Under the pieces are notes generated by a model, which was given only the letters and a program-made list of their open reading frames with translations, ran no database searches and was not told the DNA's origin. 42,900 nucleotides of DNA from Rhodococcus phenolicus (GTDB lineage Bacteria > Actinomycetota > Actinomycetes > Mycobacteriales > Mycobacteriaceae): NCBI RefSeq assembly GCF_001646785.1, contig NZ_LRRH01000105.1, positions 1-42,900 of the forward strand. Reading direction: 5' to 3'. Below, piece after piece: positions 267 through 42,900 of the stretch (the stretch's first letter is position 1; every line of letters begins with the position of its first letter). A program made the translations under genes and the position numbers.

Positions 267-286
267 TAGCCACTACGATCAGGCCG

Positions 287-942: not shown

Positions 943-1155
943 ATGAAGCACAGTCCACTCCACCCGCGTGTCAGTGTCATTGTCACACGCGTGGCCTACG
1001 CCGACTCACCAGACAAGGTCATCCGCGTGGATGACACTCAATCCACCGAGGACGTCCTCACGCGCTATTACCCCGGCGCCACAATCGATGATCGCGGCGG
1101 CTTCGACACCCCTGACGGTGACAGCTACCACTACGATCGAGCGCTCACCGAGTAG
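943..1155 (+). CDS. Hypothetical 70-aa acidic protein
   Basis: Codon use is strongly coding (mostly G or C at third positions). A GAGGAAG-like ribosome site lies about 11 bases before the ATG. The protein has a beta-strand start (VSVIVTRVAY) and then an acidic, aspartate-rich stretch with regularly spaced aromatics (RYYPGATIDDRGGFDTPDGD). No domain was recognised. It is followed after 26 bases by a possible 34-aa ORF and the membrane protein at 1283, so the three may form one transcript. Confidence 0.7.
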   Translation: MKHSPLHPRVSVIVTRVAYADSPDKVIRVDDTQSTEDVLTRYYPGATIDDRGGFDTPDGDSYHYDRALTE

Positions 1156-1181
1156 CTGCCCCACCGGTTCCAGCGACCAGG

Positions 1182-1286
1182 ATGCACTGTGCCCAAATGT
1201 GTTTCGCCCCAGAGTTGCAAAGGTTCGGGTCACGATCGGTCGGGCTGTTCCAGGTTTTGTCCGAGACGGAAATTGCGAAACTATGA
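1182..1286 (+). CDS. Possible 34-aa ORF coupled to the next gene
   Basis: The ORF starts MHCAQMCFAPELQRF and ends so that its TGA overlaps the ATG of the membrane-protein gene (ATGA at 1283-1286). Such overlaps usually mark translational coupling. The ORF has no clear ribosome site of its own, is short, and could be chance. Confidence 0.3.
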   Translation: MHCAQMCFAPELQRFGSRSVGLFQVLSETEIAKL

Positions 1287-1630
1287 CATTGGATCGAGAA
1301 GGTGGCGAGGGCGAAATTTCAGCATTCAAGAAGGCTTCGCCTTACTTGGTGATTCTCTCCATAATTGGCGCCCTCTTCCTGCTATTTTCTCTGCTGACCA
1401 ATGAGCGTTCATCAACCGAGGCGCGCTGCGAGGTGCGTTATGTCGTCCACCCGGAGTGGTACGAAAACAAAGAACCTGTCTCGGTCGTCACGTCATGCGG
1501 AATCCTGAACACAGGTGATGAAGATCTTGCCGACAGTCTGATCATCGGCGGACTTTACAGTTTCGAGCTCAGGGACGTGACCGTAGGACAGAACGCGAGA
1601 AGGCACATCGTGAAGGCGACACTGGAATGA
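1283..1630 (+). CDS. Single-pass membrane protein, 115 aa
   Basis: After about 18 polar residues there is one hydrophobic segment (YLVILSIIGALFLLFSLLT, about residues 21-39). An extracytoplasmic domain of about 75 residues follows, with two cysteines (EARCEVRYVV and VVTSCGIL) that could form a disulphide. The fold after the helix appears mainly beta. The frame is open further upstream but those residues are low-complexity antisense-like sequence, so the ATG at 1283 is chosen. The function is unknown. Its position suggests cotranscription with the 70-aa gene. Confidence 0.65.
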   Translation: MTLDREGGEGEISAFKKASPYLVILSIIGALFLLFSLLTNERSSTEARCEVRYVVHPEWYENKEPVSVVTSCGILNTGDEDLADSLIIGGLYSFELRDVTVGQNARRHIVKATLE

Positions 1631-21573: not shown

Positions 21574-22719
21574 TCAGGGTTGTACCGGTTTCGGCCAGGC
21601 CGTCGCATCTTTGCCGGTCACCTTCGGGTGAGCGATGACGGCGGCAATGAACGCCGGAATCGACATGCCCAATCCGTGCGAAAGTGTCGCTGCCGTCGTT
21701 CTGCCTTCGAGCCAGATACTCGGATCATCTTCGAGGGAATAGTGAAATTCCGTATTGGACCGATTCAGCGGTTGGGCAACGACACCAGGTCCGGTCGTGC
21801 CATTCCACATCCACGCCACGCTGACGGTGCCTTCCGACGGTTCGAGGCCGGCGATGATCCTCGTCAGGGTCGATTTGCCGGAGCCGTTGTGACCGACGAT
21901 CGCGACGAACTCACCGTGTTCGATGTGTAGGTCGACTCCGGTCAATGCAGCTGTGGCGCTTCCCGGGTACCGATAACCGACCGAGGCGAGGGTGACCGGC
22001 AACGGCCCGATCTCGTCGTCGTCGGTGCTCGAGACAAGAGCTTCGGGGGTGGGGATGGTGGAGAGACGGTCGAGGATGGCGGTGAGGATCAGCCAGGCGA
22101 ACAGTGTTCCGGTGACGATCCCGAACGCGATGGAACCGCCGACCCACCACCACCAGTTGTCGAGCACCGCGGTGGAGCTGCTGCGGAGCACATCGGCGGC
22201 ACCCTGCAAGGCCGACGTGCGCTCGAGCAACCTGGACACGCCCTCGAGGGTGTTGCGAAGGGTGTCGAGGAACAACGTTCGCAGCGGAACGAGGATCAGC
22301 AAGAGCAACACCGTCAGGGCTCCCAGTGCGGGCCCGACGACCATCGAGGTGACCAGCACACCGAACAGGCCTTGCTTCTTGCGCTTCGCTCGCCCGACCA
22401 GGCCGCCCAACAGCGCCGCGCTCGCCACGGTGAGTGCCGTCTGTGTACCGGCAGCGACGAATCCGACGAGGGTGCCTGCTACCGCAGCGGTCAGAAGCGC
22501 ACGGGTCCGATACCGAAGTGCGACCACCGACATCGGAACGGCCGCGACGACTTGAAGAATCGCTGCCATCGGCACGAGCACACCGATCACCGTCAATGCG
22601 ACTGTGAAGCTGCTCATGACCGCGGCGGTCGCCAATTCCTGAGGACCGAGGGGCCCTGACTTCGGAGTGCGAGAAGAACTGACGGTCACCGCTCCAGTGT
22701 GCCAGCTCGACCGAGACAC
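21574..22719 (-). pseudogene. Truncated ECF/ABC transporter gene with an unrelated in-frame 3' end (381 codons)
   Basis: Residues about 30-220 are a membrane region of several helices, as in DUF2232/Rv2326c-like proteins of mycolata. Residues about 240-300 are the start of an ABC ATPase with Walker [10 protein letters not shown] (276-284). The intact family has at least one complete ABC domain, often two, and about 700 residues. Here homology stops after [10 protein letters not shown] (about position 21,820). The last about 80 residues ([20 protein letters not shown] ... [20 protein letters not shown]) are unrelated, with no signature motif or Walker B. The gene is broken at the island edge, and the product cannot hydrolyse ATP. 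The start is uncertain: the GTG at 22689 is possible. Confidence 0.8.
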
Positions 22720-22797
22720 ACTGTTCGACGTGACTTCCGTGGTTCGGGCCGGCCGGTCTTTGCGCAGTTGCTGCGGTGGTGAGCGTGAGAACAGAAA

Positions 22798-22834
22798 AGC
22801 GCGGAAAGCCCTCGTAAAAAGGGCTTTCCGCGCT
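22798..22834 (-). terminator. Rho-independent terminator of the DEAD-box gene
   Basis: A perfect 14-bp stem (22798-22811 with 22821-22834) and a 9-base loop are followed on the minus strand by TTTCTGTTC. It lies 11 bases past the stop codon at 22845. Confidence 0.95.
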
Positions 22835-22844
22835 CAGGCCGAGA

Positions 22845-24248
22845 TCAGCGGCTGCGCTGGCTCGTAGCCGGTCCTGCTGCACGACGGCTGTGGCCGCCGC
22901 CACCGCTACGCGGCTGTCCACCGGAACGGGGCTGTCCGCCACCGCTGCGCGGCTGACCACCACTGCGCGGCTGACCACCCGAACGGGCCGGGCCGCCGCG
23001 GCGAGCGTTGCTGTTGCGCGGGGCTCCGGTGCGGGCGGGTGCCTGCTCGACTCGCGGTGCAGGCTCGACGTAGCGGGCCTGCTCGCCGACGAGGTTCGCC
23101 ACTGCGGGCGAATCGGCGGTGACGCGGATCGGGGTGACCTTGATATCGGCCTTGCGCAGCAGCACTGCGGTGTCCTTGCGCTGCTCGGGCAGGACGACGG
23201 TCACGACGTCGCCAGCGCTGCCGGCGCGCGCCGTGCGGCCGGAGCGGTGCAAGTACGCCTTGTGCTCGGCCGGGGGATCGACGTGGACGACGAGCTGAAC
23301 GTCGTCGACGTGGACGCCGCGGGCCGCGACGTCGGTGGCGACGAGAACGCGAGCCTGGCCGGAGGAGAAGGCTGCGAGGTTGCGGTCACGTGCGGCCTGC
23401 GAGAGGTTGCCGTGCAGGTCGACGGACGGGATTCCGGCGTCGGTGAGCTGCTTGGCCAGCTTGCGGGCCTGGTGCTTGGTGCGCATGAACAGGATGCGTC
23501 GTCCGGTGCCCGAGGCGAGCTGATGGACTAGCTTCTTCTTGGCTTCGACGCCGTCGACCTCGAAGACGCTGTGCGTCATGGCCTCGACGTGGGAGGTGGC
23601 CTCGTCGACGGAGTGCGTGATCTGGTTGTGTAGGAAGCGCTTGACCAGCTTGTCGACGCCGTTGTCCAGTGTCGCCGAGAACAGCATGCGCTGACCCTTG
23701 TCCGGGGTGGCGGCGAGGATGCGGGTGACGACAGGCAGGAAGCCCAGATCGGCCATGTGATCGGCCTCGTCGAGGACGGTGATCTGAACGCCGTCGAGCG
23801 TGAGGTGGCGCTGCTTCATCAGGTCTTCGAGGCGACCGGGGCAGGCGACGACGATGTCGACTCCACCCTTGAGCGCGGAGACCTGGCGAACCTGCGACAC
23901 ACCACCGAAGATCGTGGTGACCTTCAGCGAGTACGCGGCGGCGAGGGGCTCGATTGCGACGGCGATCTGGGTGGCGAGCTCACGCGTCGGAGCGAGAATC
24001 AGGCCACGCGGGCGGCCGGGCTTGCGATTGCCGGGAAGCTGGCCTGCGAGCCGAGCGACCATCGGGATCGCGAAGGCGAGTGTCTTTCCGCTGCCGGTCT
24101 TTCCGCGTCCGAGCACGTCGCGTCCCTGCAGTGTGTCGGGGAGCGTATCGGCCTGGATGGGGAAGGCTTCGGTCTTGCCCTGGCTCGCGAGTACATCCGC
24201 GATGGCCTGGGGTACACCGAGTGCAGCAAATGTTTGTGGGGTCGTCAT
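22845..24248 (-). CDS. DEAD-box RNA helicase with RGG-like tail (467 aa)
   Basis: All main motifs are present: Q motif (F7, TEAFPIQ around 26-32), Walker A GKTGSGKT (49-56), PTRELA (87-92), PGR (137-139), DEAD (160-163), SAT (191-193), the ARG block of motif V (VAARGVHVDD), and HRSGRTAR (334-341) of motif VI. The C-terminal 50 residues are repeats of RSGGQP, a basic, flexible RNA-binding tail. It unwinds RNA in ribosome assembly or cold adaptation, as in RhlE/DeaD. The start at 24248 is chosen because upstream residues are not conserved. A leader of about 220 bases with a stem near 24316-24337 precedes it. Confidence 0.95.
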   Translation of the reverse strand: MTTPQTFAALGVPQAIADVLASQGKTEAFPIQADTLPDTLQGRDVLGRGKTGSGKTLAFAIPMVARLAGQLPGNRKPGRPRGLILAPTRELATQIAVAIEPLAAAYSLKVTTIFGGVSQVRQVSALKGGVDIVVACPGRLEDLMKQRHLTLDGVQITVLDEADHMADLGFLPVVTRILAATPDKGQRMLFSATLDNGVDKLVKRFLHNQITHSVDEATSHVEAMTHSVFEVDGVEAKKKLVHQLASGTGRRILFMRTKHQARKLAKQLTDAGIPSVDLHGNLSQAARDRNLAAFSSGQARVLVATDVAARGVHVDDVQLVVHVDPPAEHKAYLHRSGRTARAGSAGDVVTVVLPEQRKDTAVLLRKADIKVTPIRVTADSPAVANLVGEQARYVEPAPRVEQAPARTGAPRNSNARRGGPARSGGQPRSGGQPRSGGGQPRSGGQPRSGGGGHSRRAAGPATSQRSR

Positions 24249-24470
24249 AGTGATGAAAAGTGCCTTTCGGGCAGGGTGTTGCACCTGCGGGCCTTGGGCC
24301 GAGATGCAAGGTGGCGAGACTGCCGGTGGGCAGTTTCGATCGCCGTAAGAGAAGCCTGTGCGGGGTGCACATGGTGATTCGGGAGCATTCCACGACGTCT
24401 GACGTGCAGCTACGCGCGTCGTCACCGAGTGTAACCGAGTTGTGGCTCGGTCTCTTCCCGTGCATGTTCG

Positions 24471-25826
24471 TCACGCGGCGCCGTCGTCGAAGAGACCCGT
24501 GATCATCACGTTCTCGATTCGCGAGTTGTAGAGCTCGACCACCGGCATGGGCGGGGCACTCGAGTCATAGGTGTGGCCGGTGGGTGAGATGAGCCTGTAC
24601 CGATGTCGCGCGTTGCGTTTGTCTCGCCGCGCTTCGGCCGTCCAGCCTTCCCCTTCTTTCGCGTAATTGCATGCGGCACAAAGGCCTGCGCCGTTTTCGG
24701 CGCTGGTTTTACCACCCGCGGAGTGTGGCCGGATGTGATCGTGGTGTCGGATCGGCGCGTCGCACCACGGGGTGCGGCAGGTGCGATCTCGGAGGTCGAT
24801 GAGGCGTCCCAACGCGGTGGGAAAACCTCGCGACGTGGACTCCACTGCCGTCAGCGCTCCGGATTTCGGATGGGCATAGAGGCGACGTAATGCGACGTGC
24901 GTCTCATTGCCTTGTGCGTCGTCGAGCGCGTCTCGAATCAGTTGCCGTGCGACATCGGACGGGATTTCGCCGTAGCCGTGCAGATATGCGGACGTGTCAC
25001 CGCCGGCGAGCAGCGTCGAATCGGAGATGACGATGTCGACGGTCACTGGCGGGCCTTGGGCTGCTGACGCGCCGGTGACCCGCTCGAACACGAGGTCGGC
25101 CATGATCTGGTCGCGCGTGCGTGTGTCGCCGCCCGAGTTGATGATGGTGTCGGCATCTCGTCGCAGCGTGGCCCACATGCAGACGGACTTCTCCATCGAT
25201 GTGAGGACGGTGAAGAAACCCATGGATTCGGGTGCGGGGCGGGTGCTGGTGCGCCGAGCTGCGTATGCCTTCGCACGCCGCTTCACCTGGGAGGCGGCGT
25301 CGAGTTCGTTGGCAAGTGCGCGAGCGCGACCCTCGATGGTGCGGTCGCCGGCACCGGCCAATGTCGCGGGGTCTGCGCACAATCGTTCGTCGATGGTGCG
25401 GCGATCGTCGACGGTGAGGCACGCCGTCTCGCGAGCAAGAATCATGACCCGCCACTCGTTGAGTTCGCCGGCTTTCAGGCGCGCGAGAGTGTGCGGCATT
25501 TCGTGCACCAGCGCGCGTGCGAGTCCGAGGTGAGTGCCGCCACGGTTCGGCGATTCGCGTCGGGCCAAGCCGATCTGTGACGCAATCCCGCTGCGCCACT
25601 GAGCTTTCGGTTTGCCGAGCTCTTTGCGTTCGTTGCTGATGGCTGTTGCGACGGCATCGGTCACCACGGCTTGCGTTGCCACGCTGACGCACTTGACCGT
25701 CTCGAGAGCGGAGATCAAATCGATGCCTGCTGCTGCGTCGACAACGACATCGGACGCCTGAAGACGTGCGACGAAACGCAACACCTCATCAGGTGTCAGC
25801 GGCAAATTTTTCAAAGCTGTGACCAC
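24471..25826 (-). CDS. DUF222 / HNH endonuclease-domain protein (451 aa)
   Basis: The N-terminal about 330 residues are the helical DUF222 region. The C-terminal HNH site is seen at about 350-392 as C-x4-C (CRTPWCD), HHDHIRPHSAGGKTS and LCAACN. This two-part layout is found in many copies per genome in mycolata, where the proteins are linked to mobile DNA (REP13E12 type in mycobacteria). The frame is open to 25853, but the GTG at 25826 is preferred because GGAGG lies 5 bases before it. Function in vivo is not established. Its HNH residues look intact. Confidence 0.9.
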   Translation of the reverse strand: MVTALKNLPLTPDEVLRFVARLQASDVVVDAAAGIDLISALETVKCVSVATQAVVTDAVATAISNERKELGKPKAQWRSGIASQIGLARRESPNRGGTHLGLARALVHEMPHTLARLKAGELNEWRVMILARETACLTVDDRRTIDERLCADPATLAGAGDRTIEGRARALANELDAASQVKRRAKAYAARRTSTRPAPESMGFFTVLTSMEKSVCMWATLRRDADTIINSGGDTRTRDQIMADLVFERVTGASAAQGPPVTVDIVISDSTLLAGGDTSAYLHGYGEIPSDVARQLIRDALDDAQGNETHVALRRLYAHPKSGALTAVESTSRGFPTALGRLIDLRDRTCRTPWCDAPIRHHDHIRPHSAGGKTSAENGAGLCAACNYAKEGEGWTAEARRDKRNARHRYRLISPTGHTYDSSAPPMPVVELYNSRIENVMITGLFDDGAA

Positions 25827-25902
25827 GAGTTCCTCCCCAGTACTCGAATGCATGTTCGATAGTACGGGTGAATTCGATGGTACGCAAGACCTGCTTCGGA
25901 CG

Positions 25903-26661
25903 TCAGGTGAGCACTACTGCGATGGCGATGGAGCTGACAACGGCGTTGTTGAATGCGTGCAAAATCAGCGGAGCCCAGAGCGATCGATACCAGAGACGGA
26001 GTGCAACAAGGCCGGTGCCCAGGAAGAGGATGTACAGCATCGCCGGCGGTGCAATGTGGCACAGTGCGAAGACGATGGTGACAAGCGCAGCACTGACCGC
26101 TGTCGGCATCTTGGACCTGAGCCAATCGAGCAGGATCCTGCGAAACACTATTTCCTCTATCAAGGGAACAACGCCCGCGATCAGCACGAGTATCGCGGCG
26201 ATCGAGGCCGGTCCGATTTCTACGGCGTCCTTCACTATCGCGTTCTGATTGCCGTCCGGTGCGACGTCGAGGAGTGCGCCAATTCCGGCCGTGGCCAGCA
26301 CGGCGAGGAGCATCAGGAGCGGAACCTGCCACAGGAGATGGAGGAGGCTGTGCGCGGGGGATCGAAAACCCAAGTCCGACAGCGACCATCGACGTCGACG
26401 GATCAACGCGAAATAGAGGCCGGCGCATCCGATGATGCCGGCCAGAACCATGGCGAGCAAAGCTGCCTCGGCGACCCCGCCGATCATGAACCCCGCCACG
26501 GCCCCGATCAGTCCGCCGATCGTCGTTCCCCCGAACCCGCTGACGAAGGCCAACGCGACGTCGCCCACGGTGGGTGTAGGCAGTGGCGAGCCGGTGAATT
26601 GCGGGAAACTCTTGTGGTTCAGGTGGACGAGTGGCGCATGCTCGTCAGGGGAGTGGTCCAC
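25903..26661 (-). CDS. CPBP-family intramembrane metalloprotease (252 aa)
   Basis: Several hydrophobic segments surround the family motifs: EE-x3-R (E169-E170 and R174, in LIEEIVFRR), F-x3-H (FALCH, H202) and H-x2-N (LHAFNN, H235-N238). These glutamates and histidines form the active site of CAAX-protease/bacteriocin-processing (Abi) proteins. The start is a GTG at 26661. Length is typical. The substrate is unknown. It stands alone between the DUF222 gene and the tRNA. Confidence 0.9.
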   Translation of the reverse strand: MDHSPDEHAPLVHLNHKSFPQFTGSPLPTPTVGDVALAFVSGFGGTTIGGLIGAVAGFMIGGVAEAALLAMVLAGIIGCAGLYFALIRRRRWSLSDLGFRSPAHSLLHLLWQVPLLMLLAVLATAGIGALLDVAPDGNQNAIVKDAVEIGPASIAAILVLIAGVVPLIEEIVFRRILLDWLRSKMPTAVSAALVTIVFALCHIAPPAMLYILFLGTGLVALRLWYRSLWAPLILHAFNNAVVSSIAIAVVLT

Positions 26662-26736
26662 ACCTGCACTATTTCGCCATACGCTCGCCTCCGCAAGTGC
26701 CGCACCCGGGCATCATGGCAGTCTTGCAGCGCTCTG

Positions 26737-26812
26737 TGGTGCCCTCGGCAGGATTCGAACCTGCGACCTACCCTTTAGGAGAGGGTTGCTCTATCCCCTG
26801 AGCTACGAAGGC
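26737..26812 (-). tRNA. tRNA-Arg (anticodon CCT)
   Basis: On the minus strand the arms fold normally: acceptor GCCTTCG with CGAGGGC, D-arm GCTC/GAGC, anticodon arm ACCCT/AGGGT enclosing CTCCTAA, and T-arm GCAGG-TTCGAAT-CCTGC. The anticodon CCT reads AGG. The discriminator A (26740) is followed by an encoded CCA (26737-26739). Confidence 0.97.
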
Positions 26813-26926
26813 TGGTAACTGTCCGTTGATCGTAAACTGCTGCAGCGCAACATTTTTCGATTTTCGGAACAATCGGTTGCGGATAGGTTTGCTGCCAGAG
26901 TGCACAGCCGACCCACATCGCGCTCG

Positions 26927-27553
26927 CTAGTCTAGCGGCCCACCCCGCGGATCGGGAAGCAGGTTCTGGATCGACGCCACTCGACCGGTCAGTGACGCAA
27001 TCAGCTTCAATGCGGTGCGGTGCTGGTGAGCGGTGTAATCGGCAATCGCTTCGACGCCGACGAAGCACTCAATATCGCGGGCGGAAGCGTCGAACGTCGT
27101 CGCCAAAATTCCCGCCGACGCGAACACGCCCACGATGATGAGCTGGTCACGGCCGCGTCGGCGCAATTCGACCTCCAGATCGGTGGCGTAGAAGGCGCTG
27201 TAACTTCGCTTTGCGATCGGAGCGAAGTCCGGCTCGGTGATCGCTACCTCCTCGGCGTTTGGGCCCAACCCCCACATCGGTCCCAGCAGTCCCCGCTGGG
27301 CGACGTCACTCGCCGCTCGTGGAGCACTGGCCAGAATGGGTACCCCACTCGACCGCGCCCACGCGACCACCTCCGATGCCGCCGCAAACACTTTCGAGCG
27401 GACAGAGTCGTCGAGCACGTTGAGGTAGTACGGCTGCATGTCGTGGACCAGGAGGGCGGCTCGCTGAGGAACCAACTCCCACTCCGGGCCGCCCGAGCAG
27501 TCGAGCAGAGCGTCGGCGTCGTAGTCCTCTGCTGCGACGCTGAATGTGGCCAT
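26927..27553 (-). CDS. Isochorismatase-family hydrolase (208 aa)
   Basis: The sequence follows the EntB/DhbB/PhzD plan: RAALLVHDMQPYYL (D38 catalytic Asp), a Lys at 115 (KRSYSAF), GVFASAGILATTFDA and ARDIECFVGVEAIADYTAHQ. The position of the nucleophile Cys in nicotinamidase-like members is Ile149 here, as in true isochorismatases, which use Asp and Lys. It probably cleaves isochorismate or a related vinyl ether to a dihydro-dihydroxybenzoate. No siderophore or phenazine gene is near, so the pathway is unknown. It has no ArCP domain. AAGGG lies 7 bases before the ATG. Confidence 0.85.
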   Translation of the reverse strand: MATFSVAAEDYDADALLDCSGGPEWELVPQRAALLVHDMQPYYLNVLDDSVRSKVFAAASEVVAWARSSGVPILASAPRAASDVAQRGLLGPMWGLGPNAEEVAITEPDFAPIAKRSYSAFYATDLEVELRRRGRDQLIIVGVFASAGILATTFDASARDIECFVGVEAIADYTAHQHRTALKLIASLTGRVASIQNLLPDPRGGPLD

Positions 27554-27643
27554 CCGACAACCCTTCCCTCCCGCAAACGCGCGCGCATTCGCTAGGCGCG
27601 CGCAGTCCTGCTATACGTCCGCTGACCATTCCGCTCGCACCTG

Positions 27644-27716
27644 GCAAACGCGCGCGCGTTTGCGAAATCCAGAGGCCCCGCGAATCCTGCCGACCCGCCG
27701 AATCCAGAGGCCCCGC
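27644..27716. repeat. 20-bp palindrome and 16-bp direct repeats
   Basis: GCAAACGCGCGCGCGTTTGC (27644-27663) is a perfect palindrome. A related partial sequence occurs at about 27567-27585. AATCCAGAGGCCCCGC occurs twice (27666-27681 and 27701-27716). The block lies between the isochorismatase start and the end of the permease gene and could hold a transcription stop or operator. Confidence 0.6.
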
Positions 27717-27723
27717 CCACAAC

Positions 27724-30191
27724 CTAGTCCGCCGCAATGGCCTCCACGATGTTCAGTCGCGAGGCGTGCACGGCGGGTGGAGCCGAGCCCAGCAGCGACA
27801 GGCCCAGGGCGACGAGGCCGTACAGCAGCACCGACCAACCGGCGGTGTAGGCAACCGGGATTCCGATGCTGGCGCCGAGGATCAAGGTGCTCAGATACTG
27901 CAGACCCGCGCCGATGATCAGGCCGAGCACGCCGCCCACGATGCCGACCGACAGTGCCTCCGCCAACACCATTCGTGCCAGGGTTCCCCGTCCACCGCCC
28001 ATGGCTCGCAGTACGCCGAGTTCGCGTCGACGCTCCAGGACCGACAGCGTCAACGTGTTGAGCAACGCGACCGCGGCGACGAGCGCGACGATCCACTGCA
28101 ACGCGATGGCCAGTGCGCCGGACTGTCTGATGGCAGCGCTGGTGCCCTCGAGTGCGGCAGCGCCGGTGTACACGAAGACCTCGGGCGGCAGTGTCGAACG
28201 CAACGAATCCTCAACGGCCGCAACGTCTCCGTCGACGCCGATCTCCAGGTAGGTCGCGCCGGGTCGGTCGTACCAACGCTGCATCGAGTCCAGCGAGATT
28301 GCCATCGTGCCGCCCGCGGCATTGATGTACTGGACCAGATCCAGCACTCGCACGTTCTTCACGCCCGTCGGCGTCGGCAGATCGATGTAGTCGCCCACCG
28401 ATACACCCAACGTCCTGCCGAACCCCTGGGACAGCACCACACCGTCACCTGCGAGCACCTGGGACCGCACGGTGTCGGTGAGCGATGCGAGCGTCACCGC
28501 ATTGCTGCCGTCGGCGACGCCCTGGATGGATACCGTCTCGCCGTCGATCGTTGCGTATGCCCACTGCCCCTCGACGACGCGAGCGACACCGGGCGTCGAA
28601 CGGACGGCGTCTGCCACCTCCGTAGGAACGATGGGGCCCGACGGTATGGCGTCGGGCGAGGACATCGACACGTACAGGTCGGTGTTCGCCAACGACGACA
28701 GCGATTCGGCCGCCGAGTCGGTCATGTTGGCCAACGAACCCGACACTCCGACACTGACTCCCACCGCAATCACGATCGTCATGACCGTTGCCCAGATCCG
28801 TCGCGGGGCACGTTCGATGGTGGCGGTGGCCAGCCGGCCGGCACCACCCCAGCGGCGAGGGACGGCCGCCGTGGCCGACACGATCGGTCCCGTCCCCCCG
28901 ACGCACAGCGCAACGACGCCGAACATGAACAGCGCTCCGGCACCGAGGGTCAGTTGGCCGTCGACGTTGACGGCGAACACGAACGATCCGGCAATGGCGA
29001 CGAGGCCGAACGCGGTGGCTGCAGCGACGAATCGACGACGTGGTCCACCTGCCGTTTCTCCGCCGCCGACGGCGAGTGCCTCGATCGGCGAGATGCGATA
29101 CACCTGTACCGCAGCGACGGCCGAGGCTCCGACGCAGGCCAGTACACACGCTGCGATCGCCACGGGAATGGCAAAACCTGGCAACACGTACTCGATTCGA
29201 GCGTCGAATGCCTGCGACAGGAACGGCGGAAGGCTCTCGATGGCGATGCGGCCCATCGCGATTCCGAGTGGAACACCGACGGCACCGCCGACCAGTCCGA
29301 CCAGGACGGACTCGAACAGCAGGTCGCGGACGATATCCGCGCGGCGTCCACCGACGGCGCGAAGGAGAGAAATGGTGGGTCGACGCTTCGCGATGGCCAT
29401 GTTCATGACGTTGAAGACGAGGAAGGCCGCGACGACGAATGCGATGAGCGAGACCATCAGCGTGGCATTGCGCGTCAGACTCATCGCCTGGTTCGCGCGG
29501 TCGGCCCGGTAGTCGGGGCTCATCACCGACACTCGGCCGGCGAGTGCGGCGTCGAGGTCGGACCGCAGTGTGTCGCCGTTGCCCAGGACGAAGATCGAAT
29601 CGAGCTGATCGGGGCGATCGGTGAGTGCCTGCGCAGCGGGAAGGAGCGCAACCGCGAACATGCCCCCACCGATGCGTTGCGTGCCGGGGCCGTCGATCAC
29701 GCCGACCACCGCCGTCGGAACGTCGTCGATCGTGACGGTGTCTCCCTGATTCAGACCCGTTGCGGCTCCGACCAATACACCGGAAGGATCGGACAACAGT
29801 CCCGCCGCGTTGCCGACCGCGCCCTGCAGATCCGACTGCAGTGCCGTGATGGACGAGTCGACACCGAGGACCGTCAGATCTCCGACGTCGGATCGAACGG
29901 TGCTGCGCAGCAGGGGAACCGCCGTGTCGACACCGGGAACGGAGCGCACCACGTCGAGTTCGCTCTGGTCGAAGCCGGAGTCGGTGACACCGACGACTTC
30001 GTAACTCGCGTTTCCTGCGATCGTCACCGCGAGACGTTCGACGGATCCGGTCAACGACCCGTAGGTGCCGAGGACGGCGATGAGCAGCCCGGCGGCGACG
30101 GCCACGACACCCGCGGACACGAGCGAACGCACCCAGTGCATGCGGAGGTCGCGAAGGCTGATGACTCGAAATCTGCTGAGAGCGGTACCGA

Positions 30192-30195
<4 letters not shown>
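27724..30195 (-). CDS. FtsX/MacB-type ABC transporter permease (823 aa)
   Basis: A first helix (SLVSAGVVAVAAGLLIAVLG) is followed by a large outer domain (MacB periplasmic-like) and two sets of FtsX-type helices, in the middle and at the C terminus (VAAVALLNTLTLSVLERRRE, then LGVLRAMGG). That is the double-FtsX layout of large actinobacterial permeases. It pairs with the ATPase upstream: the GTG start overlaps the ATPase stop (GTGA). The pair probably exports a lipid or lipoprotein, or drives an outer process as MacB/LolCDE-type systems do. The substrate is unknown. Confidence 0.9.
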
Positions 30196-30902
<707 letters not shown>

Positions 30903-30980
30903 GGACGAATCCCCTTGCTTCTCGAATGTATCTTCGACGCTACCTGCCGTCGGATCGAGAAACCGTTCGGAACTCTCAGA

Positions 30981-32213
30981 TCAAGCTGCGCCGCGCGAGG
31001 ATTCGAGTCGGCGGGCCACCAGCGCGGCCTGCAGGTGTCGGATTCCGGACGGACGTGTGGGGTCGAAGCCCGTGAGCTGTGCGATCCGCTTGAGGCGGTA
31101 GTCGACGGTGTTGGTGTGCAGATGGAGCTGACGAGCAGACCGCTGACGGTTCAGATCGTGCGAGATATGGATCTCCAGGGTTTCGAGCAGCTCGGGTGAC
31201 GAATCGAGCGGCTCGAGTATCTGAGTCAGGTGGCGTCGGCCGGGGCCCGGACGCGTCAGCTGGTACTCCAGCACGAGATCGTCCATGCGGTACAGGCCGG
31301 ACGGGCGGTGCAGTTGATGGGCCAGAGACAGCAGTTCGTGGACCTGATCGGCTGCGGTGGGGATGTCCGCAGTGGCGGCCTGCTCGGCCGTGACGGTGAC
31401 GGGCACCTCGGCGGCGGTACCGATGCGATGCACCAGAGCCTCGACCCACTCGTCGTCGTGGACACCGGGAATCAGGACGGTGCCACCCTCGGTGCTCAGC
31501 AAGGACAGGGGAGTGCGGCCGCAGATCGTGGCCAGCTCGGCCTGGACACGACGCAGCTTTCTGCGAGCGGCGACCGTCTTCTGGATGTTGGGGTCGTTCT
31601 CGTCCGGGTGCGGCGGCACCGAGATGGCGAGCACGAGGTAGCTGTCGGCGAGTTCGATGCCGGACTGACGTGCCATCGACACCGCGTTGTGGCCGCTGAG
31701 AAGTGAGGTGACCAGAGTGTGCGCTGCAGTGTGGTGTTCGCTGGCCACGGCCTGCAGTTCTTCCACATAGCTCTTGCTGGCGGCGATGGATACCTTCTCC
31801 GACAGCAGCACGAACATGCGCGCGGCCTCGATCAGCTGCGCTGCATCGCCCTCACCCGCTCGCTTCGACACGAGATTCCAGCCGATCTGGATGCCCTCGT
31901 GGTAGACGCTGAGCACCGATTCGAGCGGAACTCCTTCGCGAGCCCACTGGCTGGCCTTGGCGCGAAGCTCGGCCAGGTCGGATTCCGCCGGGGCGCGGCG
32001 CTCGTCGAGCATCTGGACCGCGATGCTGATGCATTTGACGGTGAATTCGGTGACGTCGCCGTGGAGCTGTTCGCCTGGCAACGACCCGCAGGGAGTGTTG
32101 GCTGCGAAGTGTCCTACCAGGAGCCGCGCCACCGCGCGGAAATCGCGAAGAGGAGCCGACGCAGGCTGACCCGCGACCATGATTCCGAGGCTAGTCGAGT
32201 TGTGAACGGTCAC
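30981..32213 (-). CDS. PucR/CdaR-type transcriptional regulator (410 aa)
   Basis: The C-terminal HTH_30 domain is seen in LETLEIHISHDLNRQRSARQ then LHLHTNTVDYRLKRIAQLTG (about 340-395), typical of PucR regulators. The N-terminal part is helical (a RsbT co-antagonist/PucR-like region), and a central GGDEF-like CdaR part holds RRVQAELATICG. The GTG start at 32213 has no good ribosome site. It is divergent from the DesA-like gene and may control it. This is inferred from the arrangement only. The effector is unknown. Confidence 0.9.
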   Translation of the reverse strand: MTVHNSTSLGIMVAGQPASAPLRDFRAVARLLVGHFAANTPCGSLPGEQLHGDVTEFTVKCISIAVQMLDERRAPAESDLAELRAKASQWAREGVPLESVLSVYHEGIQIGWNLVSKRAGEGDAAQLIEAARMFVLLSEKVSIAASKSYVEELQAVASEHHTAAHTLVTSLLSGHNAVSMARQSGIELADSYLVLAISVPPHPDENDPNIQKTVAARRKLRRVQAELATICGRTPLSLLSTEGGTVLIPGVHDDEWVEALVHRIGTAAEVPVTVTAEQAATADIPTAADQVHELLSLAHQLHRPSGLYRMDDLVLEYQLTRPGPGRRHLTQILEPLDSSPELLETLEIHISHDLNRQRSARQLHLHTNTVDYRLKRIAQLTGFDPTRPSGIRHLQAALVARRLESSRGAA

Positions 32214-32540
32214 AGATCAACCCTTCGTGTTGGTTCTTCAGGTCATACGGACTGCAAACTTACTGGCGCGTATCAACGCGCTTCGATGGCTCAATGTAAA
32301 CAATCGAACCTGAAACCGCGTCGTTTTCGTACTTCAAGTTTGTTTCCTGGCCTCTAACAGGATCGATCATAGGTTGTTATCTACGTGTGATCCATGGTTT
32401 CGGCAAAACTCGTTGTGATCTATCTCGAGCGACCGACGTGGCCGGCTGCGACTTGCCCTAAACAATCGGGAAGCTGTTCACGGCGCACGCGGCGCACATC
32501 TACCTTGATCCCGTCGGGAGTGGGCAACGAAGGGACGAGC
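32214..32540. other. 327-base intergenic region with a small palindrome
   Basis: The region separates the divergent regulator and desaturase-like genes. It holds GCGCGT-ATCA-ACGCGC at 32266-32281, a perfect 6-bp inverted repeat that could be an operator. AT-rich stretches (for example near 32293-32300 and 32321-32342) may hold promoters. No gene is seen. Confidence 0.45.
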
Positions 32541-33446
32541 ATGCACAGTGATATCGGTCAGTTCACTGTCCTCCGGGAGTTGCGCCCGACGATCGAGGAA
32601 AATCTCGCCCGTCACCGTGTCGAGTCGGTTCAGTGGGTACCGGCCGATTTCGTGCGTGCCGAGATGTACTGGGGATCGCGTCCCTCGCCGCTGACCGAAA
32701 CTGCCAAAGCCGCGTTGGTGACCAATCTTCTGGTCGAGCAGAACATTCCGCTCTACCGCCGAGATGCAGGGGCAACCGAGATCGGTGCCTGGCCGTCCTG
32801 GCTCACCGACTGGAGCAGCGAACGACGTCGGCACTCGGTGGCCCTCACCGATTACCTGGTCGCCACCCGCAGCGTCGATCCGGTCGCCCTCGGACGAGCT
32901 CGAGCGCAATGTATGACGGTGGGGTTCGACGCCCCCATGAACGGTGCACACCTGCTTCGGTCACTGGTTCAGGTGGTCCTCGACGAGTCGGTCTCGACTA
33001 TCAGTCATCGCAACACCGCGGACCAGTGCCATGATCCGGTGGCGGATCGTCTCCTCGGACGCATCGTCGCCGATCAGGAACTGCACGTCCGATTCTTCGC
33101 GAACTTGGTCTCGGCAGCGCTCACCGTGGCACCCGGCCTGACGGTCACCGCCATCACCGAGGTCGTCATGAATTTCCAGCTACCGGGTACCAACCTCCCC
33201 GGTTTCGCGCGCAGTGCGATGCTCATCGCGCGCGACGGCATCTACGACCTTGCGCGCCATCTCGACGAGGTACTGCGGCCCATGTTGGCCCAGTGGCGCA
33301 TCTTCGAGCGGACAGATCTCGGTGCCGGGGCGCGTAGTCGCGATCAATTGGCGGACTACTTGGACCATCTCGATGCCCAGGCCGCCACCATCGAACGCAG
33401 CTCTGTGCGAACGCGGGAGTACGCAAACGCATTGCGCGCCAGCTGA
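32541..33446 (+). CDS. DesA-like acyl-ACP desaturase homologue with altered metal ligands (301 aa)
   Basis: AAGGGA lies 6 bases before the ATG. The helical layout and blocks (LLVEQNIPLY, RHSVALTDYLVATRSVDP, LDESVSTISHRNTA, LHVRFFANLV) match the stearoyl-ACP desaturase family, close in plan to mycobacterial DesA2. The di-iron site normally has E-x2-H twice. Here the first is R95-R-R-H98 and the second Q179-E-L-H182, so two metal-ligand glutamates are replaced. E66 and E149 are kept. A desaturase may have become inactive or changed role. It is probably a soluble protein acting on acyl-ACP, possibly under the divergent PucR gene. Confidence 0.8.
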   Translation: MHSDIGQFTVLRELRPTIEENLARHRVESVQWVPADFVRAEMYWGSRPSPLTETAKAALVTNLLVEQNIPLYRRDAGATEIGAWPSWLTDWSSERRRHSVALTDYLVATRSVDPVALGRARAQCMTVGFDAPMNGAHLLRSLVQVVLDESVSTISHRNTADQCHDPVADRLLGRIVADQELHVRFFANLVSAALTVAPGLTVTAITEVVMNFQLPGTNLPGFARSAMLIARDGIYDLARHLDEVLRPMLAQWRIFERTDLGAGARSRDQLADYLDHLDAQAATIERSSVRTREYANALRAS

Positions 33447-33544
33447 CACCACTTACCTCGACGGGGTGGATCGACTAACCTGAACTCCTACTCTTCTTCA
33501 CGCTCCACACCTTGTGTTCGGGGCAACGACCGGAGGCCCCCATC

Positions 33545-34405
33545 GTGACAGGCTCTCGACCGATCATCGTCGGTATAGACGGATCCGCCGCGGCGGACAA
33601 GGCAGTGATCTGGGCGGCCTTGTGCGCGCATCGACGCGATCGGCGGTTGCACATCGTCACTGCCGTCGACATGCCGGGAGTTGTCGATCTGAGCGAATTC
33701 GCCGGAGAAGCAACGGAATTCGTTGCGACGGCCAAGTCCAGGTTGGTGGCGGCAGAGACCCTGGCCGCGCTGGTCGTCGACGATCCCGCGTTCGAGGTGA
33801 CGTCGAGCGCCATCGAGGGCGGCGTCATGGACGTTCTCATCGGCGTCTCGGCGCAGGCCGAGATTCTGGTGATCGGCGCCAGTGAAACCGGCGCTGTCAC
33901 ATTGTCTTTGGCGGCCCACAGCGTCTCGCCGGTGGCAGTGGTGCGGGGCCGTGACATCGACGGTCGTCGGGTCGCCGAGGGCCCGGTCGTTGTCGGCATC
34001 GATGGATCGGACGTCAATCAGACTGCCGTCGAGTCGGCGTTCGTCGAAGCGTCGGCGCGCGATGCCGTATTGATCGCGGTACACGTGTGGTCCGATGTGG
34101 ATCTGACGCAATCGTTCGGCCGCGCGCCCAAGGATTGGCACGCCATTGCCGACGGCGAAGAGGCACTGCTGGCAGAGAGCCTCGCCGGCTGGCAGGAGCG
34201 GTTCCCCGAGGTCGAGGTGCAGCGCATCGTGGCGCAGGACCGACCGGTACGGGTACTCAGTGGCCTGTCCGAAACCGCAGCACTGATAGTGGTGGGCAAC
34301 CGGGGACGCGGCGGATTCGGTGGAATGCTGCTGGGGTCCACGAGTTTCGCTCTCGTCAACACCGCGGACTGCCCGGTGTTGGTAGTGCGAAAAGCACTCA
34401 CATAG
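33545..34405 (+). CDS. Universal stress protein, two USP domains (286 aa)
   Basis: The GTG at 33545 follows GGAGG by 8 bases, so the open frame upstream is left out. Two USP folds in tandem are seen. Each begins with a VVGIDGS strand (IIVGIDGSAAADKAV near residue 7; VVVGIDGSDVNQTAV near 147). The second ends with VGNRGRGGFGGMLLGSTS, the G-x2-G-x9-G-[ST] ATP-binding motif, and the first has a degenerate one (IGASETGAVTLSLAAHS). So only the second domain is likely to bind ATP. Such tandem proteins are common in mycolata and respond to hypoxia or stress. Confidence 0.95.
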   Translation: MTGSRPIIVGIDGSAAADKAVIWAALCAHRRDRRLHIVTAVDMPGVVDLSEFAGEATEFVATAKSRLVAAETLAALVVDDPAFEVTSSAIEGGVMDVLIGVSAQAEILVIGASETGAVTLSLAAHSVSPVAVVRGRDIDGRRVAEGPVVVGIDGSDVNQTAVESAFVEASARDAVLIAVHVWSDVDLTQSFGRAPKDWHAIADGEEALLAESLAGWQERFPEVEVQRIVAQDRPVRVLSGLSETAALIVVGNRGRGGFGGMLLGSTSFALVNTADCPVLVVRKALT

Positions 34406-34724
34406 CGACGGTCAGCAAAAAGCTCACGTCTTCGAGGGCCTCGACGCTGTGGCGGGCGTCGGGGATGACGAGCAGATCGCCGGTCGAGCCCTTCCAGGAT
34501 CGCTCGCCGCTGATCAGCTCGAGCTTTCCGCTCAGCACCAGCACCGTCGACTCGCCGGACAGGTCGTGTTCGGCCAACTTGTTACCGGCGGCCAACGCCA
34601 CGACAGTCTGCCTCAGGTGGCGTCGGTGACCGCCGTACACCGTCTGCGAACTGCGGCCACTCGACGCACCGACGGCGAGCTTGAGTTGTTGGCGGGCAAG
34701 TGCGGTGAGTGACTTCTTGTCCAT
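34398..34724 (-). CDS. Small cupin-domain protein (108 aa)
   Basis: A single cupin beta-barrel is seen: the first motif appears as LAAGNKLAEHDLSGESTVLV (a G-x5-H pattern with one His) and the second as GDLLVIPDARHSVEAL (G-x5-P-x4-H). The metal site may use H53 and H91. The function is unknown; it could bind a small ligand. Its 3' end overlaps that of the stress protein by 8 bases in convergent orientation, so transcription from each strand may interfere. Confidence 0.9.
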   Translation of the reverse strand: MDKKSLTALARQQLKLAVGASSGRSSQTVYGGHRRHLRQTVVALAAGNKLAEHDLSGESTVLVLSGKLELISGERSWKGSTGDLLVIPDARHSVEALEDVSFLLTVAM

Positions 34725-34778
34725 GATCGTCAGTATGACGCACGGTCTGCGGTCGCGACGGGGGAATCCTGAACGCGC

Positions 34779-35288
34779 TCAGGAAGGTTGGGTAGCCTGT
34801 CCGTACTCGACGTAGCGAAATCTAGTGTCGTTCACTCGGCTGTTCTGCCACTCGCCGGCCTTCGCGGTCCAGCCGTCCGGAATCTCGGGGGCGACGGTAT
34901 CGCCGGAGATGTCGAGATCGACCTCGGTGACTTCGAGGTGCGTCGCGATACTCACTGCACTGCGATAGATTTCGCCGCCACCGATGATCCAAACCGGGCT
35001 TCCGCTCGCCAGGGCCACAGCGTCGGCGACACTCGGTGCGCTTTCGGCACCGTCGGCGGTCCACGACGCGTTACGGGTGACCACGATGTTGCGACGGCCC
35101 GGCAGCGGGCGGAACTTCGCCGGCAACGAATCCCAGGTCCTGCGCCCCATGATCACCGGGTGCTCGGCCGTCGTGGCTTTGAAGTGCGCCATGTCCTCGG
35201 GAATGCGCCAGGGGATGCCACCCCCGTCGCCGATGACCCCGGCCCGGCTCTGAGCCCAGATCAGACCGACGAATTGCGGGGCAGTCAC
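34779..35288 (-). CDS. dfrA: Dihydrofolate reductase
   Basis: The protein (169 aa) reads [20 protein letters not shown] at the N terminus, with W27 and E31 (IPWRIPEDM) at the folate site, then [10 protein letters not shown] (NADPH binding) and WIIGGGEIY (the GGxxIY loop). These are hallmark DHFR motifs. It reduces dihydrofolate to tetrahydrofolate with NADPH. The GTG start overlaps the stop of thyA (GTGTGA), so the two are translated together, which fits: thymidylate synthase makes the dihydrofolate that DHFR recycles. The frame is open far upstream through thyA, but this is a shadow, not a fusion. Confidence 0.97.
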
Positions 35289-36094
35289 ACTGCGACCGGA
35301 GCCTTGATGGCCGGATGGTGCTGATAGTCCACCATCTCGATGTCCTCGAAGGTGTAGTCGAAGATCGAATCTCGTTGTGCCAGTTTCAGAGTGGGGTACG
35401 GATACGCCTCGCGGGAGAGCTGCTCGGTAACCTGTTCGCGGTGGTTGTCGTAGATGTGGCAGTCGCCGCCGGTCCACACGAATTCGCCCACTTCCAGACC
35501 CGTCTGGGCCGCCACCATGTGCGTGAGCAGCGCGTAGCTGGCGATGTTGAACGGCACACCGAGGAACATGTCTGCGCTGCGTTGGTACAGCTGGCAGGAC
35601 AGTTTGCCGTCGGCCACGTAGAACTGGAAGAACGCGTGGCAGGGCGGAAGCGCCATCCGCGGGATCTCGCCGACGTTCCAGGCCGAGACGATCATGCGCC
35701 GCGAATCCGGATCGGTCTTCAAGGTCTCGATGACCTGGCTGATCTGGTCGATGTGCTCGCCGGACGGGGTGGGCCACGACCGCCACTGCACTCCGTAGAC
35801 GGGGCCGAGCTCGCCGTCCGGAGCTGCCCACTCGTCCCAGATGCTCACGCCGTGCTCCTGCAGCCAGGTGGCGTTGGAGTCGCCGCGCAGGAACCACAGC
35901 AATTCGTACACGATCGACTTCAGATGGACCTTCTTGGTGGTGATCAACGGGAAGCCCGCTGCCAGATCGAAGCGCATCTGATGCCCGAACACGCTGGTGG
36001 TGCCGGTCCCGGTGCGGTCGGACTTCGCCGTCCCGGTATCGATGATGCGGCGCAGCAGATCTTCGTACGGAGTCGGAACCATCACGACGGTCAT
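35285..36094 (-). CDS. thyA: Thymidylate synthase
   Basis: The protein (269 aa) begins [20 protein letters not shown] and has the classic features: [27 protein letters not shown], the catalytic Cys in [40 protein letters not shown] and the C-terminal IKAPVAV. It makes dTMP from dUMP using methylene-tetrahydrofolate. It is first in a thyA-dfrA operon and divergent from the DNA glycosylase. The ATG at 36094 sits 6 bases after a TATGCA that may be part of a leaderless promoter. A second ATG at 36082 is an alternative. Confidence 0.98.
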
Positions 36095-36102
36095 CGTAGC
36101 TG

Positions 36103-36108
36103 CATACT
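36103..36108 (+). promoter_or_regulatory. Probable leaderless -10 of the glycosylase gene
   Basis: CATACT ends 6 bases before the ATG at 36115, with no ribosome site. It overlaps the promoter region expected for the divergent thyA gene, whose start is 20 bases away. Confidence 0.45.
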
Positions 36109-36114
36109 GGTTTC

Positions 36115-36981
36115 ATGCCGGAATTGCCCGAGGTCGAAGCCCTTGCCGGCTTCCTGCGCGAACATGCCGTCGGTGCCGTCATCGGCCGCATCGACATCGC
36201 CGCGCTGAGTGTTCTCAAGACGTTCGATCCGCCGATCACCGAACTGCAGGGCCAGGACGTCACCGATGCCGCGCGGTTCGGTAAACACCTGGCACTGCGG
36301 GCCGGCGACCTGTGGTTGATCACGCATCTCTCGCGCGGCGGTTGGCTGCGGTGGGTGGACAATCCCAGCGCCGCGCCGCCCAAGCCCGGCAAAGGTCCGT
36401 TGGCACTGCGGATCCACTTCTTCACTCCCGAAGGCGCGACGCCCGCCATCGACCTCACCGAAGCCGGTACCAAGAAGCGATTGGCGGTCTGGGTGGTCCG
36501 TGACCCTGCGCAGGTGGCGAGCGTCGCTCGCCTCGGACCCGATGCGCTGACGGTCACCGAGCTCGAGTTCGCCGAAATACTCGCCGGCACCACCGCGCGA
36601 CTGAAGACCTCGTTGGTGGACCAATCTCTGTTGGCCGGTATCGGCAACGCGTACTCGGACGAGATATTGCACGTCGCGAAGCTCTCGCCGTTCGCGTCGT
36701 CGAGCAAGCTCGATCCCGAATCCGTCGCGACGCTCTACGCGTCGATGCGCTCGGTGCTGTCCGACGCGGTGGCCCGCTCGGCCGGGCAGGACGCGGCGCG
36801 GCTGAAGGGGGAGAAGCGATCTGGTATGCGGGTGCACGCCAGAACTGGGCTGCCGTGCCCGGTGTGCGGAGATCCGGTACGCGAAGTCGCGTACGTCGAT
36901 CGATCGTTTCAGTACTGCGCCACGTGCCAGACGGCCGGCAAAATTCTTGCCGACCGTCGAATGTCACGTCTGCTCAAGTGA
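36115..36981 (+). CDS. Fpg/Nei-family DNA glycosylase (288 aa)
   Basis: The protein starts PELPEVEALAGFLREHA, with the catalytic Pro2 and Glu3 and the conserved Lys57 (RFGKHLAL). A helix-two-turn-helix (LVDQSLLAGIGNAYSDEILH) is followed by a zinc finger CPVC...YCATCQ near the end. It removes oxidised bases from DNA and nicks the strand. Which of Fpg or Nei it is cannot be decided. It shares the divergent region with thyA. Its 3' end overlaps the carboxylesterase gene by 8 bases. Confidence 0.95.
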   Translation: MPELPEVEALAGFLREHAVGAVIGRIDIAALSVLKTFDPPITELQGQDVTDAARFGKHLALRAGDLWLITHLSRGGWLRWVDNPSAAPPKPGKGPLALRIHFFTPEGATPAIDLTEAGTKKRLAVWVVRDPAQVASVARLGPDALTVTELEFAEILAGTTARLKTSLVDQSLLAGIGNAYSDEILHVAKLSPFASSSKLDPESVATLYASMRSVLSDAVARSAGQDAARLKGEKRSGMRVHARTGLPCPVCGDPVREVAYVDRSFQYCATCQTAGKILADRRMSRLLK

Positions 36982-38515
36982 AGGGTTCGAGTTTCTGGCT
37001 GGCGTAGCCGCGGTAGCCTTCCCACGCCTTGCGGCGGTCGCTCCGCGGATCCTTCTGCACCCGAGTGCGGGTGTCGAAGATCAGTGTCTTTCGGTCGCCT
37101 TCGTCGTACGCCGGCCACGACTCCAACGGCTTTCCGTTGGTGGCGAACGCAATCCAGTGCGATTGCACCTGCTCGGTGACCTCGGAGAACGCCTTGCGTC
37201 CGCCGGCCAGGGTGAGCGCCTTACCGAACAAGGTCTCACTGATCCCGAACACGGCGAACAATTCGAAGCCGTGGGTGGCGTCCAATCCGAGCAGCTTCAT
37301 CGATCGCGGCGCGAAGTCGAATCGGTAGAAGTACGTCGGTGCGTGACGCGAATGTCCCTCGGCCACTTCCAGTGACGGCTTCCAGAAGGTGAAGTCGCCG
37401 CCGAAGTCGATGGCGGCACGCTCGTTCGGGTAGCCCCGGTAGCCCGAAGTGACCACCGCTTCGGCGTCGGGATCGGTGAGTGAGAACAGCTTGGTGATGC
37501 GCTCTGGATTGGTGGGCAACACGGGGAAATTCCGAAACAGCGTTCCCTCACGGGCATTGGTACCGATGATCAGCGGCACGCGGTGCGCGGTTCCGTTCGC
37601 ATACGCCTCGACCGGGCTGATCGGTAGGAAGTCGCCGTCGATCACCGGGCCGAACGGGAGCAGGCCCGGAGTGCGGTGCCACGTGGTGAGACCCAGCTTG
37701 GTCCCCGCGCGTCCGAGCCGTAGTACCTCGGCGTTCTCGAGGGTCTCGGCAGCGTTCTCGACGGTGCCGCCGAGGTAGCCGACGTATTCCCGCGCCCATT
37801 GATCGGCGCGCTCCTTGGTGGCGGTCATGCCGGGAGCGGAACTCTCGGAAATGGCCTGAGCGAAAAGGCCTTTGGCCGAGGGAACCGTCATCAGGGTGGT
37901 GACGGCGTTGCCGCCGGCAGACTCACCGAAAACGGTGACGTTGCTCGGATCGCCGCCGAACTCGGCGATGTTGCGTTGCACCCATTCCAGAGCGGCTACC
38001 TGATCTCGCAAGCCGAGGTTGGAGTCGAACGGCCGCTCGGGAGTGGAGAACTGGGACATGTCGAGGTAGCCGAGAGCGCCGAGTCGGTAGTTGACCGAGA
38101 CGTAGATGATGCCGTCGCCGTCCTTCAGCGAGCGGCGCACCAGGGAGCCGCCGCCGTACAGGGGAGTAGCGGACGTGCCGAGGGTGTACGCGCCGCCATG
38201 GATGAACACCATGACCGGACGCGGGTTCGCGCTCGGTGCGCTGGGGGCGAGCACATTGAGCGTCAGGCAGTCCTCGCTGGACGGCTGGTACTTGCCGATC
38301 GCGAGCATCGTGCCTCGCTTGTGCTGAACGGAGGCATTGCCCCACTCGGTGGCGTCGCGCACGCCGTCCCACGGTTCGGTGGGTTGCGGCGCCCGGAAAC
38401 GCAGTGGGCCGACGGGTGGGGCGGCGTAGGGAATGCCTCGCCAGGTGGTGAGGTCACCGACGGGCTTTCCCTCGATGATGCCGTCGGAGGTGGTCACGCG
38501 TGTCGTCACAACCAT
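36974..38515 (-). CDS. Type-B carboxylesterase (513 aa)
   Basis: The alpha/beta-hydrolase landmarks are FRAP (residues 40-43), SEDCLTLNVLAP, the oxyanion loop VFIHGGAY (104-110), and the nucleophile in FGESAGG (Ser199). HGFELFAVFG near the C-terminal third supplies the His, and a Glu/Asp lies between. No signal peptide is seen, so it is cytoplasmic. It hydrolyses esters of unknown identity. The ATG at 38515 is used. The upstream frame overlaps the next gene and is not conserved in plan. Confidence 0.95.
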   Translation of the reverse strand: MVVTTRVTTSDGIIEGKPVGDLTTWRGIPYAAPPVGPLRFRAPQPTEPWDGVRDATEWGNASVQHKRGTMLAIGKYQPSSEDCLTLNVLAPSAPSANPRPVMVFIHGGAYTLGTSATPLYGGGSLVRRSLKDGDGIIYVSVNYRLGALGYLDMSQFSTPERPFDSNLGLRDQVAALEWVQRNIAEFGGDPSNVTVFGESAGGNAVTTLMTVPSAKGLFAQAISESSAPGMTATKERADQWAREYVGYLGGTVENAAETLENAEVLRLGRAGTKLGLTTWHRTPGLLPFGPVIDGDFLPISPVEAYANGTAHRVPLIIGTNAREGTLFRNFPVLPTNPERITKLFSLTDPDAEAVVTSGYRGYPNERAAIDFGGDFTFWKPSLEVAEGHSRHAPTYFYRFDFAPRSMKLLGLDATHGFELFAVFGISETLFGKALTLAGGRKAFSEVTEQVQSHWIAFATNGKPLESWPAYDEGDRKTLIFDTRTRVQKDPRSDRRKAWEGYRGYASQKLEPFT

Positions 38516-38547
38516 GTCGCGAGTGTACAAGCACGCCGGTGAAGCCG

Positions 38548-40098: not shown

Positions 40099-40109
40099 CG
40101 GTGGAGTCG

Positions 40110-42833: not shown

Positions 42834-42900
42834 GTACAAATCTCCAGTAATTTCGGCGGCCGCGTCGACTTCTCGCGAAATGATCCCTCCCGGGATTTCC

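Follow-up and report, generated by a model that had tools for sequence, protein, structure and literature searches.

A base-exact junction between two DNA blocks and its 381-codon fusion reading frame in Rhodococcus phenolicus and related plasmids

ECF-type transporters with a DUF2232-like membrane part and two ABC ATPase domains are represented by a 686-residue protein of strain Leaf278 of the Rhodococcus fascians group. The H-CA8f plasmid encodes a 210-residue protein, CPI83_RS30470, whose 73%-identical paralogue CPI83_RS30570 lies directly downstream of a TNT-domain gene (annotation; Pfam TNT); judged by this gene position, the 210-residue protein is plausibly a putative immunity protein. 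Pfam and NCBIfam return no match for CPI83_RS30470, Pfam gives one weak hit below its cut-off for the paralogue, and the PDB contains no match for the relative of the 210-residue protein in R. qingshengii IEGM 1359. In the latter strain (locus L048, 6804–11646), a small gene and the 210-residue family in tandem copies, one of them split, come after a gene for an 818-residue secreted-type protein; the array resembles a toxin gene with several immunity genes stacked behind it.

Among plasmids, the closest described relatives are pLW1 of Rhodococcus sp. LW-XY12 (253,808 bp), pGZ01 (236,455 bp), unnamed3 of AH-ZY2 (353,437 bp) and plas1 of ZM15 (241,142 bp), all complete and typed rep_cluster_1732. 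LW-XY12 is described as a phthalate-ester degrader (PMC10134610). AH-ZY2 is linked with phthalate esters in a source whose plasmid passages, in the available text, concern cloning vectors (PMC13188901), and the main text of PMC11406921 names R. ruber ZM15 88 times, with the words plasmid, plas1 and chromosome absent from it. Among the literature matches listed, no title or abstract opening describes the junction or the captured segment reported here. We analysed a stretch of 42,900 nucleotides from R. phenolicus (assembly GCF_001646785.1, contig NZ_LRRH01000105.1), referred to as the window. The four plasmids share with it a composite at positions 1436–42770, including the junction, at an identity of at least 99.9%, and differ from it at 1–1435 and 42771–42880, where they carry other DNA.

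Make-up of the fusion reading frame

The open reading frame of 381 codons at 21574–22719 on the minus strand was confirmed as first reported. Pfam, NCBIfam and alignments assign its 5′ part (21820–22719, minus strand; the first 300 residues) to an ECF-type transporter comprising DUF2232 and the start of an ABC ATPase, and an identity of 81/81 assigns its 3′ part (21574–21819, minus strand; the last 81 residues and the stop codon) to CPI83_RS30470. The first-pass annotation, made from the letters alone, had proposed a transporter gene cut inside its ABC domain near 21,820 and continued by a foreign, in-frame 3′ end of about 80 residues; both proposals proved right.

DUF2232 occupies residues 38–183 (28.8 bits against a Pfam cut-off of 27.8), and the NCBIfam ECF_ATPase match is confined to residues 243–302. 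The ECF_ATPase_1 cut-off is 315 bits; the fusion reaches 58.8, and the intact Leaf278 protein itself just misses the cut-off at 300.5. The fusion shares residues 1–300 with this type of transporter, which comprises about 686 residues when intact, and is identical to the Leaf278 protein up to residue 299–300. Unlike the Leaf278 protein, it ends its first ATPase domain at position 44 of the 137 positions of ABC_tran, shortly past the Walker A motif, and has no second one. The complete nucleotide-binding domain of a functional ABC or ECF ATPase is absent from it.

The tail corresponds to residues 130–210 of CPI83_RS30470 and is read in that protein's own frame. This explains why its frame is open and its coding composition normal. 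Residues 1–129, needed for full-length membership of the 210-residue family, are lost, and in pLW1, as annotated, no TNT-domain gene adjoins the remnant, unlike the H-CA8f paralogue.

Most probably the fusion is a scar without function, its truncated domains pointing to an inactive protein. A working hybrid protein under selection, for example a membrane-anchored immunity fragment, would account for a frame that stays open, is unchanged in all six known carriers and is called as a gene by annotators. We nevertheless regard it as highly improbable: the ATPase part stops within its first domain, the partner protein has lost its N-terminal 129 residues, and the conservation of the frame among carriers carries no weight as evidence, since the whole region is near-identical in them.

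The breakpoint and the DNA on its two sides

We located the breakpoint by the switch in alignments with intact homologues, as the first-pass annotation had advised, and by side-by-side comparison of the two parents, using 18 confirmed loci from a peptide-pattern scan of 84,980 species genomes. It lies at 21819|21820. Upward from 21820, the transporter locus of KRD162 matches at 100% over 10.9 kb, so that the whole 5′ part of the fusion is identical to it in DNA, and that of Leaf278 matches at 98.4%; other loci of the fascians group reach 80–93% in matched blocks. Downward from 21819, the sequence follows R. qingshengii IEGM 1359 at an unrelated locus, with 92–94% identity in the main blocks. 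Read from the match start, the frame stays open for 670–687 codons in 10 of 11 fascians-group loci, the exception being KRD162 locus L035 with 586 codons; locus L041 and the metagenome-assembled genome nzgw98, which carries the fusion itself, were kept apart from this reading. A second transporter locus of KRD162, 81–82% identical, is open over 684 codons.

At the break the parents have 0 bp in common when IEGM 1359 or BH4 supplies the left side and 1 bp when H-CA8f does. No word of at least 14 bases near the junction recurs within the window (three 12-base words do), and, the far edge of the supposed island lying outside the window, a comparison with the edges in pLW1 gave no direct repeat of at least 11 bases. 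The direct repeat at both ends that the first-pass annotation had suggested searching for is therefore not borne out, and neither a direct repeat nor an att core common to the parents, the mark of site-specific integration, was found. What we observe, unrelated parents with little or no homology at the joint, is the pattern of end joining. Four joints (that in the window, a second one at 38528|38529 and the two outer joints of an insert in KRD162) have 0–2 bp common to their parents. Ku scored over the cut-off in 5/5 genomes tested, against 1/14 control genomes; end joining is therefore available in them.

We surveyed 401 genomes of the family (400 sampled evenly from a larger group, plus the R. 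phenolicus genome itself) for the origin of both parts, scoring the two best first-look candidates per genome, so that a tail lying far from a transporter match could escape. Apart from the window's own sequence, every long 5′ match to the fusion frame (about 840 bases or more) at 80–100% identity falls in genus g6. The whole tail is matched in genus g24, in IEGM 1359 (75–97%) and in genome G223 (75%), and one shorter g6 match to the tail reaches 78%. The complete 1146-bp fusion frame was found among these genomes only in R. phenolicus and nzgw98. In IEGM 1359 (G133:C11, 970000–986241), the native transporter orthologue (69%) lies only about 14 kb from the tandem copies of the tail family, although these genes are unrelated to each other.

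The left block (1436–21819) is plasmid-type DNA with a restriction endonuclease gene and mostly genes for hypothetical proteins. From about 2575 onwards it is patchily 81–96% identical to the H-CA8f plasmid at 280848–301600. The right block (21820–42880) is R. fascians-group chromosome, 98.6–99.7% identical to Leaf278 and 99.6% to KRD162, and consists of two pieces. Piece 1 (21820–38528) is 98.6% identical to Leaf278 and 81–93% identical in blocks to the G280 chromosome near 4.49 Mb. According to the pLW1 annotation and Pfam it carries the transporter gene and genes for a DEAD helicase, an HNH protein, a CPBP protease, a tRNA-Arg (cct; 26737–26812, minus strand, ARAGORN), an isochorismatase, an FtsX/ABC pair, a PucR-type regulator, a desaturase, a Usp protein, a cupin, DHFR, thymidylate synthase, an Fpg-type glycosylase and a carboxylesterase. 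At 38528 both Leaf278 and G280 depart from the order of the window. Piece 2 (38529–42880), from a separate chromosomal locus and 99.7% identical to Leaf278, encodes a GT87 glycosyltransferase and a ponA-type transglycosylase/transpeptidase. The counterparts of 38529–42770 lie at G280:C1:57558–61829 (a contig of 5,706,031 bp) and on another Leaf278 contig, G234:C23:106763–111004; if the G280 chromosome is circular, the two pieces would be about 1.3 Mb apart on it. At the second junction, just upstream of the carboxylesterase gene, the pieces have a single G in common.

Carriers of the junction and the host genome

A megablast search of 72,556 plasmid records matched the window's right half to the four plasmids at 99.9% over 99% of its length. 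The left half, from base 1436, matches the same plasmids at 100.0% and ends exactly where the right half starts. In alignments of at least 900 bases, each plasmid shows 13–15 listed differences from the window, none inside the fusion frame. The block contains an IS630 copy in two of the four plasmids and an IS3 copy in one, unlike the window. An IS5 transposase gene lies directly beside the left edge in the plasmids, where window positions 1–1435 are absent. The R. phenolicus form, with 1–1435 and 42771–42880, may predate the plasmid changes at the edges. In pLW1, a pair of tyrosine recombinase genes lies a few hundred bases past the right edge of the captured segment (L107, 47285–49901) and is present again, inverted, elsewhere on the plasmid (L110, 22319–25326). 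The contig of nzgw98 that bears the junction (G286:C90) covers window positions 11690–36913, with one difference up to 35.68 kb and divergence from there to the contig end. R. phenolicus, nzgw98 and the four plasmids thus make six known carriers, and in all six the block adjoins the 381-residue frame; the counter-case named by the first-pass annotation, relatives with this protein but without the adjacent block, was not encountered.

That close relatives of the two halves belong to two genera (g6 and g24), with the R. phenolicus genome in a third (g1), could suggest a contig assembled chimerically from two Rhodococcus species in a mixed sample. The chance of this is minimal. Four complete plasmids of different strains show this junction at the identical base; nzgw98 has it too, on a contig with other ends; and 0–1 bp at the joint means that there is no overlap to mislead an assembler. 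With five other assemblies carrying the same join, we rejected an assembly chimera for the junction.

The R. phenolicus genome has an intact transporter orthologue on contig C159 (a 782-residue frame, 39% identity), so the fusion would be dispensable. In the other genomes of genus g1, the best homologue reaches 36–39% in 15/17, and none is found at E 1e-30 in 2/17; elsewhere R. phenolicus carries another copy of the helicase at 72%. Since its relatives offer only these distant homologues, its own orthologue is intact and it has this other helicase copy, the right half of the window is foreign to this genome and its genus. The 8-kb replication stretch of pLW1 finds its main matches in R. phenolicus at 75–88% on other contigs, and the KRD162 sequence past the right end of the window has no match in the R. 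phenolicus genome. The contig ends on both sides of the window, and nzgw98 likewise offers no plasmid context; judged by its sequence, the window appears to be plasmid-type DNA.

The first-pass annotation had interpreted the site as an integration or deletion junction within a core gene at the edge of an island, with the missing half of the ATPase at the other edge or lost. An abruptly cut gene with foreign DNA next to it fits the integration of an island into a transporter gene of the host itself, yet we consider this reading very unlikely: the host's orthologue is intact, the side bearing the gene does not belong to the genus either, the parents have only 0–1 bp in common, and the pLW1 annotation has no integrase beside the junction. 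Nor was the missing half found. For the 1164 bp that would complete the Leaf278 gene, R. phenolicus and nzgw98 give only 68–83% matches, mainly the native orthologues, and the KRD162 version, which supplies 828 of the missing bases, gives the same picture of native homologues and short pieces at 67–85%. We therefore rejected a host core gene broken by an island. What survives of the earlier claims is an illegitimate junction within a core-type gene, although not the host's own, and an edge between two DNA blocks, although with the roles reversed: the supposed core side is captured chromosome and the supposed island side is plasmid DNA.

Strain KRD162 and the formation of the composite

Scaffold 2 of KRD162 (G274:C23) is H-CA8f-like up to base 52149, continues with a 23,482-bp insert and is then H-CA8f-like again. 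The insertion point corresponds to H-CA8f 227005/227006, with a 2-bp overlap and no target sequence lost. The insert holds both captured pieces in the order of the window with the same joint at 38528. Its transporter gene extends 828 bp beyond the cut in the window, up to the start of plasmid DNA. The plasmid and Leaf278 have 2 bp (AC) in common at both outer joints, and the outer ends share no inverted word of at least 10 bases within about 250 bp. Over the 21-kb captured segment, KRD162 is 100% identical to the window except at 79 positions within a patch at 35546–38511, which suggests recombination; the divergence of nzgw98 at 35681–36913 overlaps this patch at the end of its contig. KRD162 thus carries the same two-piece segment as the window, but at another H-CA8f-like site, with a cut 828 bp later and without the window-left block, which was not found within 24000–123999 of scaffold 2. 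This arrangement would be an earlier or sister state of the window composite.

On both sides, the H-CA8f-like DNA of KRD162 borders on chromosomal stretches that adjoin each other in Leaf278 and G280; it would be either a plasmid segment integrated there or the product of wrong scaffolding. The stretch of about 71 kb (G274:C23, 22868–94126; covered by loci L127, L115, L098, L099 and L100) comprises roughly 41 kb of H-CA8f-like DNA, the 23.5-kb insert and an unassigned remainder, and it adjoins the native ponA/GT87 locus.

From these comparisons we propose the following order of events, which as a whole we consider probable. An H-CA8f-like Rhodococcus plasmid would have taken in a 23.5-kb insert at a single point, keeping its own sequence; the insert would combine two chromosomal fragments from the R. 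fascians group (Leaf278-like), in the arrangement visible in KRD162. Subsequently about 55 kb would have been deleted, from a point within the captured transporter gene to one within the 210-residue plasmid gene, which would have bluntly joined the two gene remnants, the frame being kept by chance to give the 381-codon frame, and the composite would then have spread to several Rhodococcus species. The joints were presumably made by Ku-type end joining.

The deletion is inferred from order and orientation: the left block follows H-CA8f from 280848 to 301600, in patches, and its orientation relative to the insert is that expected after a deletion. On the H-CA8f map the stretch missing from the window amounts to 53.8 kb, to which 828 bp of captured DNA are added. 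No plasmid was seen that combines the insert with the 54 kb in between, and transposition or inversion could yield the same order.

A ready two-piece segment might also have been joined directly at plasmid position 280848, with the same plasmid never passing through a KRD162-like stage. In the parts of pLW1 and H-CA8f that were compared (outside pLW1 50000–63999 and H-CA8f 30001–151699), only the block left of the junction is common to both, so the ancestor need not have had the 227005 site; the missing window-left block of KRD162 points the same way. KRD162 nevertheless has the same mosaic with the same 38528 joint, near-identical sequence, an H-CA8f-like site and matching orientation, and we hold direct joining to be rather unlikely. 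Independent formation of the two-piece mosaic is unlikely, and moving a ready-made one to site 280848 is possible. Insertion followed by deletion remains our preferred explanation.

A more far-reaching account is possible but doubtful. In it, Ku-type end joining would have mended a plasmid break by inserting two unrelated fragments of 5.9 and 17.5 kb from the chromosome of another species while the target was kept; a second housekeeping set (thymidylate synthase, DHFR, ponA, tRNA-Arg, helicase) would then have been carried through several Rhodococcus species, with backbone shed by a further blunt deletion. The fusion itself is a genuine event that has been passed on, though events of this type are ordinary.

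The base-exact scar provides a marker for tracking the composite through several Rhodococcus species and habitats. Plasmids of these bacteria carry a block of housekeeping genes of another group, and such blocks can mislead genome binning, gene-based taxonomy and claims of broken core genes. With the two-fragment insert of KRD162, the question whether bacterial plasmids are built by end joining can be put to a specific example.
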